64,000 nt of DNA from Pisciglobus halotolerans (lineage in GTDB: Bacteria > Bacillota > Bacilli > Lactobacillales > Carnobacteriaceae). Of this stretch, positions 1-31,638 are shown piece by piece (the first letter of the stretch is position 1; each line of letters begins with the position of its first letter). The DNA is taken from positions 1 to 64,000 of the forward strand of contig NZ_FOQE01000010.1 in NCBI RefSeq assembly GCF_900113675.1, given 5' to 3'. The position numbers and the translations under genes were made by a program. The notes under the pieces were generated by a model. It made no database searches and had not been told where the DNA came from. It worked only from the letters and a program-made list of their open reading frames with translations.

Positions 1-347
1 ATTTAGAAGAATCTAAAAAATATGCTTTACCGAGAAAAGTGAGAACTGTTCTTAAAACGTTTAAAAAACACCTAGAGGACATTAAAAATGCGTTTGTCTA
101 TACGCTTTCCAATGGTCCTATTGAAGGAATGAACAACAAAATCAAGAACATCAAACGATCAGGATATGGCTATCGAAATTTCTATAACCTGCGAGCCCGA
201 CTATTGATTGTTTATCGATTGACTGCTTCTCACTATCAACCTAGAGCTTTGTATTTTAAAGATGAAAAAGCAGCATAAAATAAAAAAGCCAAAGCGATGT
301 AATCGCTCTGACTTTTTTGACCCACCAACACTACTTGTCAAAGAGCC
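1..347 (+). mobile_element. Right part of an ISL3-type insertion sequence
   Basis: The transposase fragment is followed by a terminal sequence that, read inward from 347 on the minus strand, begins GGCTCTTTGACAAGTAGTGT and continues TGGTGGG. That layout is typical of ISL3-family ends. The left end lies outside the window, so the expected 8-bp target duplication (here it would start at 348) cannot be checked. The first 26 bases of this end match the ends of the short dispersed elements in this window at about 17 positions. Confidence 0.75.
3..278 (+). CDS. ISL3-family transposase, C-terminal fragment (cut by window edge)
   Basis: The frame is open from the left edge to a TAA at 276-278, so this is the last 91 or so codons of a gene that starts outside the window. 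The residues NGPIEGMNNKIK followed by the R-G-Y-G-Y segment and the arginine-rich tail are characteristic of the C-terminal part of ISL3-family DDE transposases, where the final catalytic glutamate lies in the EGMNN context. A GTG at 39 is only an internal codon. The stop is followed within 70 bp by a terminal inverted repeat, so the 3' end looks intact. Whether the full gene works cannot be judged from here. Confidence 0.9.
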   Translation, partial: LEESKKYALPRKVRTVLKTFKKHLEDIKNAFVYTLSNGPIEGMNNKIKNIKRSGYGYRNFYNLRARLLIVYRLTASHYQPRALYFKDEKAA

Positions 348-422: not shown

Positions 423-488
423 GGTTCTTCCTCTTCTAACGTTAGTCAAGAAATGTGTTAAATGACCAACGTTAACTGTTATAGAACC
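423..488. repeat. ISL3-like miniature repeat element, copy 1 (66 bp)
   Basis: It begins GGTTCTTCCTCTTCTAACGT and ends with AACGTTAACTGTTATAGAACC, so the ends form an imperfect inverted repeat shared with three other copies in this window (4241, 8546, 18159). The 8-bp flanks TTTTTATA and TTTCTATT agree at 6 of 8 positions, possibly a decayed target duplication. It has no coding capacity. It lies two bases beyond a terminator T-run. Confidence 0.7.
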
Positions 489-3973: not shown

Positions 3974-4077
3974 TCTATCGCACCTCCTTATTAGACTTAG
4001 ACTCGCCATCATGAGTGCCAAATGGACTTAAAACTCAATTCTGCGCGGTTGTAGTTGTGGTGCTACACATTTACAAC
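3974..4077 (-). ncRNA. 5' leader of rplU (candidate L21 autoregulatory leader)
   Basis: The predicted transcript start near 4077 gives a leader of about 100 nt before rplU. It contains short complementary segments such as GTGTAGCACCACAACTAC. Firmicute rplU operons usually carry a structured L21-binding leader here. The assignment rests on position and length; I did not fold it or match a covariance model. Confidence 0.5.
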
Positions 4078-4201: not shown

Positions 4202-4240
4202 AAAAAAAGACCAAGCTTGAGTTTATCAGCTTGATCTTTT
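4202..4240 (-). terminator. Terminator of the mre-min operon, displaced by an element
   Basis: AGATCAAGCT pairs with AGCTTGGTCT (one G-U pair) and is followed by seven T residues on the minus strand. The first bases of its 5' arm, AAAAGATC, are also the 8-bp duplication flanking the repeat element at 4241-4523. That element therefore separates the terminator from the minD stop by more than 300 bp. Confidence 0.85.
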
Positions 4241-4523
4241 GGTTCTTCCTCTTTTAACATTGGTAAAGAAATTTCCTCCGGTCGATGGGCTACTGATGGA
4301 AAGCCCTGAGAACACATTGAGCCGAAAATCGTGTCTCAATGCTTGCAAGCTTCAAACTGAGTGTAACGGCTAAAGCCTAACACTAAGTGATTCACATTGC
4401 ATCTTTTTTTCATGGCTATCAGTAGCCCTATGCGCCTCCTGAAATTTCTAGAAATAGGATTCTAACGAGCTTAGCATTAAAAAATTGATTTTTTTACAGA
4501 CCAACGTTAAATTTTGTAGAACC
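4241..4523. mobile_element. ISL3-like miniature element, copy 2 (283 bp), with perfect 8-bp duplication
   Basis: The ends GGTTCTTCCTCTTTTAACAT and (inverted) GGTTCTACAAAATTTAACGT match the other copies. The element is flanked by a perfect 8-bp direct repeat GATCTTTT at 4233-4240 and 4524-4531. Eight-base duplications are the rule for ISL3-family transposition. It is longer than the other copies because of an internal segment (4276-4440) bounded by the octamer GAAATTTC on both sides. No open frame of useful size is present, so it must be mobilised in trans. Confidence 0.85.
4276..4440. repeat. Structured segment nested in the 283-bp element
   Basis: It is bounded by GAAATTTC at 4268-4275 and 4441-4448. 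Its arms pair: GGGCTACTGAT at 4287-4297 with ATCAGTAGCCC at 4418-4428. Between them lie smaller hairpins on the minus strand: CATTGAG/CTCAATG, the self-complementary GCTTGCAAGC, and GGCTTTAGCC inside GTGT/ACAC. The whole could fold as a multi-branched RNA or cruciform. The 100-bp copies at 8546 and 18159 lack it. Confidence 0.65.
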
Positions 4524-4551
4524 GATCTTTTTAGTAAGATAAATAAAATCT

Positions 4552-5346
4552 TTATTTTCTTCTGCCAAACAGCTTTTTCCAAAAGCTTGTTTTTTCTTCT
4601 CTTAACGACATCAAAGGAACAGTCTCCCCTAACATACGACGCGCGATATTACGATAGCCTTGTGAGGCAGGATTCTTAGGATTCAGTACGATTGGATCAC
4701 CATTATTAGAAGAACGGACTACATCATCATCATCAAAAACGATACCAAGCAGATCGATTGAAAGGTGGCGCGTAATTTCATCTACATCCATCACTTCTCC
4801 ATCTTGCATCATTCTTTTTCTGATCCGATTGATGAGCAACTGAGGAGAACCGATTTCAGTTTGCTCCAATAATCCAATAATACGGTCAGCATCACGAATC
4901 GCCGAGATTTCAGGTGTTGTCACCAAAATCGCTTCATCAGCTGCTGCGATAGAATTTTTAAATCCTTGTTCGATCCCAGCCGGACAATCGATCAAAATGT
5001 AATCATAGTCTTCTCTTAAAGAATCAACGATTTCAATCATTTGTGCTTCTGTAACATCATTTTTGTCAGCATGCTGGGCAGCAGGAAGTAGATAAAGATT
5101 GTCATTGAAACGCTTATCTTTGATCAAGGCCTGATGCAGTTTTGCTCGTTCTTCAACAACATCCACGATATCGTAAATGATACGGTTTTCTAATCCCAAA
5201 ATAACATCTAAGTTTCTTAAACCAATATCCATATCGATCAAACATACTTTTTTCCCTTGTAAGGCCAAGGCTGTGCCAATATTTGCTGTAGAGGTCGTTT
5301 TTCCTACGCCGCCTTTACCAGATGTGATGACAATTGCTTTACTCAT
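4552..5346 (-). CDS. minD: Septum site-determining ATPase MinD
   Basis: MinD is a membrane-associated deviant Walker ATPase that carries MinC to the membrane to block FtsZ rings away from mid-cell. The deviant P-loop GKGGVGKTT is at 10-18 of the ATG-initiated protein, followed by IDMDIGLRNLD and IDCPAGIE. The C-terminal KTSFWKKLFGRRK is the amphipathic membrane-targeting helix, so the protein looks complete at 264 residues. The ATG at 5346 overlaps the minC stop (TGATG); a TTG one codon earlier is less likely. The element at 4241-4523 begins 28 bp beyond its stop. Confidence 0.95.
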   Translation of the reverse strand: MSKAIVITSGKGGVGKTTSTANIGTALALQGKKVCLIDMDIGLRNLDVILGLENRIIYDIVDVVEERAKLHQALIKDKRFNDNLYLLPAAQHADKNDVTEAQMIEIVDSLREDYDYILIDCPAGIEQGFKNSIAAADEAILVTTPEISAIRDADRIIGLLEQTEIGSPQLLINRIRKRMMQDGEVMDVDEITRHLSIDLLGIVFDDDDVVRSSNNGDPIVLNPKNPASQGYRNIARRMLGETVPLMSLREEKTSFWKKLFGRRK

Positions 5347-6041
5347 CAATTAAATCCCCCTGTCTTGATCTCTAAACTTGGTCTTATTTTCTTTAACTGG
5401 TCTAATGATTCAAAATTCAACATATGTAAATCATTGACAAAGGCAAATTGGGCTCCATTACTTTGTTCTATACCAGTCATTTCTTCGATCACTTCAACAT
5501 TTTCAGCTATACGGATCTGTGCTTTTGAATGAAAGTCAGCTACGATCACTGCTTTTGTATCACCAGATAGTCCTGCATGTGCTACACCGTGAAGTTCACC
5601 AATAATAAAAATGCTGCCTTTTGCCCGGATCATTCCACCAGGATGAACCTTACCTACTAATAGGATATCTCCAGGAGCTGTAAGAACCTGACCGCTTCGG
5701 ATCGTCTGAGCTTTCATTTGTAAACTAACCTCTTCTTGCCAAGCGGCCGATTCTTCATAAGTTAAAACATTTGCTGCTACTTTTTCGATTCTAAATCGGC
5801 TATTTTCGTGAACCAATGTTGTCAATTTTTCTTGTTGCTTTTCATTCAACAAACGATCACCTGTATAGACTTCTAATTGGATCGTTTCTTTTTGATCTTC
5901 ACTGTCTTTTTCTTGCGTCTTTAAATGTTCCAACAATTTCTCTGTGTCTTTTATGATCTCTTCGTATGATGCGGCTTCATCCAATGTCAACCTAAAGCCT
6001 TCTTTGACTCCTTTTAAAGTAACACTTTGATCCAACGACAT
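5346..6041 (-). CDS. minC: Septum site-determining protein MinC
   Basis: MinC inhibits FtsZ polymerisation and is positioned by MinD. The product has 231 residues: an N-terminal FtsZ-binding domain (about 1-105) and a C-terminal beta-helix domain with GDILLVGKVHPGG, IFIIGELHGVAHAG and DTKAVIVADF, the signature turns of MinC. It is translationally coupled to minD and lies 37 bp after mreD, so it forms part of an mreC-mreD-minC-minD unit. It shows no sign of decay, unlike the neighbouring mreB. Confidence 0.94.
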   Translation of the reverse strand: MSLDQSVTLKGVKEGFRLTLDEAASYEEIIKDTEKLLEHLKTQEKDSEDQKETIQLEVYTGDRLLNEKQQEKLTTLVHENSRFRIEKVAANVLTYEESAAWQEEVSLQMKAQTIRSGQVLTAPGDILLVGKVHPGGMIRAKGSIFIIGELHGVAHAGLSGDTKAVIVADFHSKAQIRIAENVEVIEEMTGIEQSNGAQFAFVNDLHMLNFESLDQLKKIRPSLEIKTGGFN

Positions 6042-8545: not shown

Positions 8546-8645
8546 GGCTCTTCATCTTCTAACGTTGATAAAAAATGGGATTTTAACAAGTTTAGCAGCT
8601 AAAGAAATGTTTTTTTCTGTGACCCACATTAAATATTATAGAACC
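8546..8645. mobile_element. ISL3-like miniature element, copy 3 (100 bp), with perfect 8-bp duplication
   Basis: It starts GGCTCTTCATCTTCTAACGT and ends AAATATTATAGAACC. The 8-bp repeat GATATTTT flanks it at 8538-8545 and 8646-8653. Length and interior (TTTTAACAAGTTTAGCA) match copy 4 and the outer parts of copy 2. It lies between csp and the mreB remnant. Confidence 0.85.
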
Positions 8646-14784: not shown

Positions 14785-15042
14785 TAAAAAAAGAGCACCC
14801 ATCCTATTAATATCATAGGACGAATGCTTTACATTCGCGGTACCACCTAATTTGTTTGCTCTTTTTATAAGCAAACCACCTCATAAACGCTTTTAACGGC
14901 ACGTTACTCCGGGCAGACTTACTCTTTTCACTCTGCCAGCTCCCAAGCTACCTTCATTTTACATAGACTAAGAACTCTCACCATTTGTTCTTTTCTCTTT
15001 GAATCCTCTGCAAAATTACTCCTCTTGATCTTCGCTTTGTTC
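14785..15042 (-). promoter_or_regulatory. T-box riboswitch leader of valS
   Basis: The T-box core AGGTGGTACCGCG lies at 14836-14848 on the minus strand and can pair with uncharged tRNA 3' ends. It is followed by an intrinsic terminator (AGCATTCGTCCTA pairing with TAGGATGGGTGCT, then seven T residues, 14785-14828). The leader upstream is about 200 nt, as expected for stem I to III. I did not assign the specifier codon; valine is inferred from the downstream gene. Confidence 0.93.
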
Positions 15043-18158: not shown

Positions 18159-18258
18159 GGATGATCATTATCTAAGATTGGTCAGTAAAAATCATTTCTT
18201 TTTCACACTAAACTCGTTAGAAACCTATTTTTTCACCAACGTTAGAAGATAAAGAACC
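18159..18258. repeat. ISL3-like miniature element, copy 4 (100 bp, one end decayed)
   Basis: Read on the minus strand it starts GGTTCTTTATCTTCTAACGT and continues TGGTGAAAA, then TTTCTAACGAGTTTAG, closely matching copies 2 and 3. Its far end (GGATGATCATT at 18159) is degenerate. The flanks AGTGAAAA and AACAAAAA agree at only 5 of 8 positions, so the duplication has probably eroded. It abuts the ezrA terminator. Confidence 0.75.
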
Positions 18259-18261
18259 AAC

Positions 18262-31375: not shown

Positions 31376-31610
31376 TGAAAAAAAAGACTTCCCCCTGAAT
31401 AGGGACGAAGTCTTCGCGGTACCACCCAAAATTTAAGAAAAAGAAATACTTTTTCTACTTTTGTAATTGTTAACGCTCATTAAGCGGCAGATTTTACTGT
31501 TTTTTCAAATCCGCACTCATGGATGATCTTACGATAAAAGGAACTTGTTAGACTTCCACCATTCTCTAACTCGCTGAAAAGTATTCTATCGTTTTCTGTT
31601 CCACTCTTAG
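31376..31610 (-). promoter_or_regulatory. T-box riboswitch leader of ileS
   Basis: The T-box core GGGTGGTACCGCG lies at 31414-31426 on the minus strand. It is followed by a terminator, AAGACTT pairing with AAGTCTT around GTCCCTATTCAGGGGG, then eight T residues. An ATC triplet about 115 nt upstream, in CGTAAGATCATCC, is a candidate isoleucine specifier, but I did not fold stem I. The leader is about 230 nt. Confidence 0.92.
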
Positions 31611-31638
31611 TTTTTATTTGTTTAATTTGGTAGTTCAA
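31611..31638 (-). promoter_or_regulatory. Possible promoter of the ileS T-box transcript
   Basis: TTGAAC, a 16-bp spacer and TAAAAA on the minus strand; the -35 lies inside the 3' end of divIVA. The -10 is weak, and read-through from the dcw operon is an alternative. Confidence 0.35.

Follow-up and report, generated by a model that had tools for sequence, protein, structure and literature searches.

The segment at 4268-4448 of the window (the whole 64,000-nucleotide stretch of Pisciglobus halotolerans DNA that was analysed) is a real and well-bounded module of ISL3 elements and their MITEs that has so far gone uncatalogued. It is probably the folded and conserved core of a MITE that derives from ISL3, inherited from the parent element, selected as DNA and likely to act as an accessory site for mobility or replication. 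The features of the locus are the following.

4204 to 4239, minus strand: terminator-like hairpin downstream of minD, from the sequence
4233 to 4240, no strand: left 8-bp target site duplication, GATCTTTT, from the sequence and from the same 8-bp pattern in other copies
4241 to 4523, plus strand: whole MITE with ISL3-type ends, 283 bp, from an alignment of 30 genomic copies with their flanks
4241 to 4265, plus strand: left terminal repeat, GGTTCTTCCTCTTTTAACATTGGTA, equivalent to the transposase-distal (3') end of ISL3 elements
4268 to 4448, plus strand: conserved folded module (covariance-model match at 4277-4438, 137.5 bits)
4268 to 4275, plus strand: octamer GAAATTTC, 5' foot of the outermost stem
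4287 to 4297, plus strand: 5' arm of the long outer stem, GGGCTACTGAT, pairing with 4418-4428
4315 to 4341, plus strand: hairpin with the conserved GAGCC...GTCTC and covarying pairs (stem 4315-4321/4335-4341)
4344 to 4401, plus strand: third arm, a TGCAA/TTGCA stem enclosing a two-part hairpin (outer pair 4344-4348/4397-4401)
4418 to 4428, plus strand: 3' arm of the long outer stem, ATCAGTAGCCC, 100% complementary to the 5' arm
4441 to 4448, plus strand: octamer GAAATTTC, 3' foot of the outermost stem
4499 to 4523, plus strand: right terminal repeat, read from the outside in as GGTTCTACAAAATTTAACGTTGGTC, equivalent to the transposase-proximal (5') end of ISL3 elements
4524 to 4531, no strand: right 8-bp target site duplication, GATCTTTT, a perfect match to the left one

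The earlier note had described a 165-bp segment bounded by octamers, with long pairing arms around smaller hairpins, and this description holds: exactly 165 bases separate the two copies of GAAATTTC, and the arms and inner hairpins lie where it placed them. It had also remarked that the octamer is its own complement. This is correct, and since the two copies pair with each other as AGAAATTTC/GAAATTTCT, they form the foot of the outermost stem and are not a duplication. The two-part hairpin of the third arm consists of 4356-4363/4381-4388 and 4368-4370/4375-4377, and the unpaired stretches GCTTCAAA and (T/G)ATTCACAT of this arm are near-invariant. Folding of both strands, which the note had proposed, gives -66.5 kcal/mol for the plus strand and -68.2 kcal/mol for the minus strand (z-scores of -6.2 and -5.9), about six standard deviations better than shuffled sequences on each strand, with none of 200 shuffles as good. 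Coding in the segment was considered and rejected, the frame created by an extra T in this copy being absent elsewhere and indels in the core being out of frame.

The insertion site of the MITE separates the end of minD (minus strand, 4552-5349) from the terminator-like hairpin and lies upstream of the rplU leader, which a Rfam scan of the window identifies as the L21 leader at 3989-4060. It is short (283 bp) and transposase-free, with no ORF of at least 60 amino acids within 4241-4523. Terminal inverted repeats (GGTTCTTC...AACGTTGGT and ACCAACGTTA...GTAGAACC) are present in all aligned copies, and the target duplication has a fixed length of 8 bp (for example GATCTTTT, CTTTATTG and CAAAAAAA). 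The window also holds three further copies of the element, every one of them without the segment, and the end of a resident IS.

1 to 347, plus strand: 3' end of a resident ISL3-family IS (transposase C-terminus, end ...CACCAACACTACTTGTCAAAGAGCC), no module
423 to 488, plus strand: short MITE copy without the module
8546 to 8645, plus strand: MITE copy of about 100 bp without the module, GATATTTT at both flanks, from the right-end search
about 18170 to 18259, minus strand: degenerate MITE copy without the module

The element is multicopy in the home genome. A query of 251 bases around the segment matches at least 40 places there, nearly all full-length and with 92-97% identity. Aligned with their flanks, the copies have sharp ends, GGTTCTTCCTCTTTTAACGTTGGTA...GACCAACGTTAAATATTGTAGAACC, each with its own 8-bp duplication, and nearly all recent copies have both the target duplication and paired ends. 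The covariance model identifies 52 cores in the 2.44 Mb, and the right end of the MITE occurs 82 times, as against none in a reversed control; about 30 copies have no recognisable core. All 30 copies checked lie outside ORFs, and relative to co-directional neighbour genes 10 are sense and 10 antisense, with no preference. Membership in the MITE class and descent from ISL3 are well supported.

The copies occur as a full form of about 282 bp, a 202-bp form with a partial core, a 137-bp form with a 31-bp core remnant and a coreless 99-bp form, and in one further form the core remnant is inverted. It had been asked earlier whether the shorter copies lost the segment or never had it. The long form is kept across genera and the shorter copies share remnants of 31 bp and 97 bp, so the copies without the segment are deletion derivatives of a longer element. 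The 12 copies of the 137-bp type sit in complete MITEs from which most of the core is missing. Eleven share one junction and the twelfth has the inverted remnant; none of the 12 has the junction predicted from slippage between the octamers, and they are no more similar to each other than to full-length copies. The inverted 31-bp remnant (L247/L403, G000:C45:50997-51057) lies between palindromic octamers, which suggests a hairpin-linked inversion.

The origin of the core is indicated by two families in which it lies directly downstream of the transposase gene, within full-length ISL3 elements. In one genome (G103) about eight ISL3 elements, intact or nearly so, have the core just past the transposase. 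In one of these (L371) the transposase is an intact protein of 450 amino acids, and the core lies 28 bp past the stop codon, within the ISL3 ends; ends and target duplications (TTAAAACG and CGGATTTT) are clear in both elements examined. A second genome (G328) has the same layout in a full element (L329), and also an intermediate (L334) in which an internal deletion has left a transposase remnant, with the duplication AATTAAAC, so that the series runs from full elements through an internally deleted one to the MITEs. The two MITE ends match the two unequal ends of ISL3 elements, the duplication being 8 bp long: the right end corresponds to the transposase-proximal end of the elements in these two genomes (GGTTCTATAC..., GGTTGTATAA...) and the left end to their distal end (GGCTCTT...), and relative to these ends the core is oriented alike in MITEs and full elements. 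Since the core is found within full ISL3 elements beside the transposase, the MITEs appear to have inherited it from them, and the earlier suggestion that the structure came from an ancestral element is upheld by this location and by the long form common to several genera.

ISL3-family IS (DDE_Tnp_ISL3, PF01610) in general resemble these MITEs in their terminal repeats and 8-bp duplications. Most of those examined differ in lacking the module, which is physically within the element beside the transposase in the two genomes above and marks only some lineages. It is absent from the 2 elements checked, of 17, in a genome with abundant ISL3 elements (G009) and from the ISL3 fragments resident in the home genome, which do have related ends. 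The ISL3 transposase matches in the home genome are all partial and most are at contig ends; a complete resident mobiliser may lie in the assembly gaps.

The home genome is the sole member of its genus in the genome collection, and its nearest named relatives by MinD are Desemzia and Carnobacterium. Element DNA matches 11 of 18 genomes of the home family, in several cases over the core and its immediate flanks only; aligned copies from these relatives have the same architecture and diverged ends. Related cores (model R1) were found in 33 of 295 sampled Lactobacillales genomes from six families, many of which have at least 7-9 copies; Aerococcus is among the genera. In a further survey, which covered the family of E. 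faecalis, the core is present in 7 of 105 genomes, with as many as 27 copies. Among 398 genomes sampled from the whole phylum the home genome is the sole match, and the core therefore seems confined to the order Lactobacillales. No core close in sequence to the window copy was found in plasmids or phages, and no viral contig matched when searched by end or core pattern. A distant, partly deleted relative is carried by enterococcal resistance plasmids between lnu(B) and a resolvase gene; it lies in a multidrug-resistance cluster at 4012-4141 of L324 (CP006623.1, E. faecium plasmid p3) and in about 70 related plasmids.

Some loci have two or three cores in tandem, often in the same orientation and about 230-315 bp apart (L299, L293, L288, L316, L141, L143, L150, L155). 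In others (L181, L190 and L215, in G007 and G016) a longer unrelated sequence is apparently in place of the third arm, so inserts or alternative arms may be tolerated in the core.

Covariation among genomic copies, which the earlier note had named as a check, was measured on 38 diverse cores with 41 proposed pairs, five measures and 500 shuffles. Across the proposed pairs 92% of cells contain a Watson-Crick or G-U combination, and 28 of the 41 pairs show changes on both sides. No shuffle reaches any of the five measures, and the signal is lost when the partner columns are slid by one to three. A chance inverted repeat, the outcome that the note had tied to an absence of copies and of covarying pairs, is thus rejected, since there are 52 cores and most of the pairs covary. 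Conservation across families is higher outside the stems, where 24 of 53 unpaired columns reach 90% conservation or more, as against 17 of 81 paired ones; recurrent motifs are GCCATGGnACCG, GAGCC-loop-GTCTC, AGCnTCAAA and TAATTCaCATnG.

Individual copies behave differently from lineages. In 42 recent resident copies the level of substitution is 2.75% for stems, 3.1% for loops and 4.2% for sequence beyond the core. Of the 133 pair changes in these copies, 132 are uncompensated and 1 is compensated; seven older copies have 98 single and 8 compensated changes. Inserted copies decay nearly neutrally and have no detectable conserved job. Because this decay is uncompensated and the copies show neither location in ORFs nor a preferred orientation, the structure must be maintained in spreading lineages, and the selection is on these mobile lineages and not on individual host sites.

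Functional RNAs tolerate G-U pairs on one strand. Single copies have 42 G-U and 49 A-C pairs in one set and 59 and 89 in another, and recent copies have 53 and 48. Since private decay of copies explains most of these counts, the test was redone on lineage consensuses. The consensuses of 12 lineages contain 429 Watson-Crick, 4 G-U and 3 A-C pairs, with no wobble excess on either strand, whereas 18 tRNAs from the same loci, counted over their acceptor and T stems, have 167, 19 and 7, the comparison being a statistical one with a small tRNA control (193 pairs). As consensus G-U pairs are nearly absent relative to this control, the pairing is kept as DNA, or through a mutational process at the DNA level, and DNA-level selection on the core is probable.

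This result bears on the earlier proposal of a structured RNA carried by the ancestral element, of which the ancestral structure stands and the RNA is disfavoured, the pairing being almost purely Watson-Crick. Such an RNA might be a structure in the 3' UTR of the transposase, or an antisense or small RNA regulating it. Both strands fold strongly, covariation is strong, the conserved unpaired motifs are like those of functional RNAs, and in full elements the module is directly downstream of the transposase. However, fixed G-U pairs are less than 1% of consensus pairs and no commoner than A-C (19 against 7 in the tRNAs), and the orientation relative to neighbouring genes is unbiased. The module also belongs to no Rfam family: the only matches in the window are two T-boxes and the L21 leader, and ten cores at a permissive threshold give nothing convincing over the core. 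(The T-box leaders, RF00230, are at 14813-15041 and 31398-31617 of the window, minus strand.) We consider an RNA role unlikely. Alternatively, the pairing could be kept mainly by mutation, with template switching during replication correcting imperfect palindromes and no selection on the fold. Pairing that is Watson-Crick only and without strand bias would follow, and the inverted remnant between octamers points to hairpin-linked rearrangement, but this process cannot explain motifs in unpaired bases that are conserved above the stems across families, and the single paired change among 133 in resident copies indicates that correction is infrequent; it is a distinctly improbable account.

The module could also serve the host as a terminator, regulator or chromosome-structuring repeat, like the roles proposed for BOX and REP. 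Many copies do lie near gene ends, here between minD and the terminator-like hairpin, but their near-neutral decay, their lack of orientation preference and the absence of any core from the matching minD region in seven relatives make this very improbable. The same can be said even more strongly of a second element nested in the MITE, as the earlier note had suggested, with the identical octamers on both sides as its target duplication. The octamers are self-complementary and pair as the stem foot, four genera of the family share the core as an ancestral trait, it is also present in MITEs of several families and in ISL3 elements without inner duplications, the short forms keep core remnants, and no empty inner site with a single octamer was found by gap pattern in the 12-42 bp range. 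This reading can practically be set aside.

The preferred reading, a folded DNA core inherited from ISL3, may be put together as follows. The core would derive from the non-coding 3' end of an ISL3 element, in the stretch that separates the stop codon of the transposase from the terminal repeat. Both ends and the core are retained in the MITEs, whose movement presumably depends on a transposase acting in trans. The core is probably selected as folded DNA, either in hairpin form where single strands are exposed or in cruciform, and its unpaired, sequence-specific motifs could be read by a protein. Most likely it serves the element's own cycle of transposition or replication as an accessory site, and candidate steps are initiation of the complementary strand, assembly of the transposition complex and target choice; after insertion, a copy would have no detectable conserved job and decay. 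The more specific version, in which a host or element protein reads the ISL3 site as a single-stranded hairpin or cruciform, is a tentative possibility; the site might then be used, for instance, in starting synthesis of the complementary strand, in aiding assembly of the transposition complex or in selecting replicating targets. To our knowledge, no folded-DNA role of this kind has been described for DDE insertion sequences. The main weakness of the proposal is the coreless forms: if these had a single origin and spread, the core is dispensable in cis for transposition, or at least not strictly required; if repeated deletion produced them, the core could be needed in cis.

REP sequences with their RAYT (single-strand transposase) partners and integron attC sites are conserved DNA hairpins with sequence-specific unpaired bases, and their general logic is like that proposed here. 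They use single-strand recombinases, whereas the ends and 8-bp duplications here indicate a DDE transposase. The EFAR repeats of Enterococcus faecalis, whose host is in a related family, are miniature elements of variable length with two stem-loops, and are alike in description alone. The pneumococcal BOX, RUP and SPRITE repeats are modular, folded, interspersed, rich at gene ends and thought to be moved in trans (PMC3049150), and the present elements resemble them in these traits, by description and not by sequence; the present module can be followed back into full-length ISL3 elements, and the text of that paper does not mention ISL3 for those repeats. Bacterial MITEs in general are short, non-coding, intergenic, multicopy and strongly folded, with terminal repeats and target duplications (PMC10969869), and the present ones differ in an internal core that is conserved in six families, with sequence-specific loops and covariation, where the internal part is otherwise an arbitrary deletion leftover. 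MITEs are already known; the conserved folded ISL3 module is not in Rfam, and a literature search of open-licence papers found no description of such a module.

The non-coding parts of IS are usually treated as filler. Here a folded core of 160-180 bases is conserved over six families, outlives the loss of the transposase gene and evolves as Watson-Crick-paired DNA. The covariance model allows annotation of hundreds of unrecognised mobile repeats in Lactobacillales, and such repeats should not be called small RNAs. If the core is a true working site, it would be a new component of ISL3 transposition and would explain why these MITEs are so alike.
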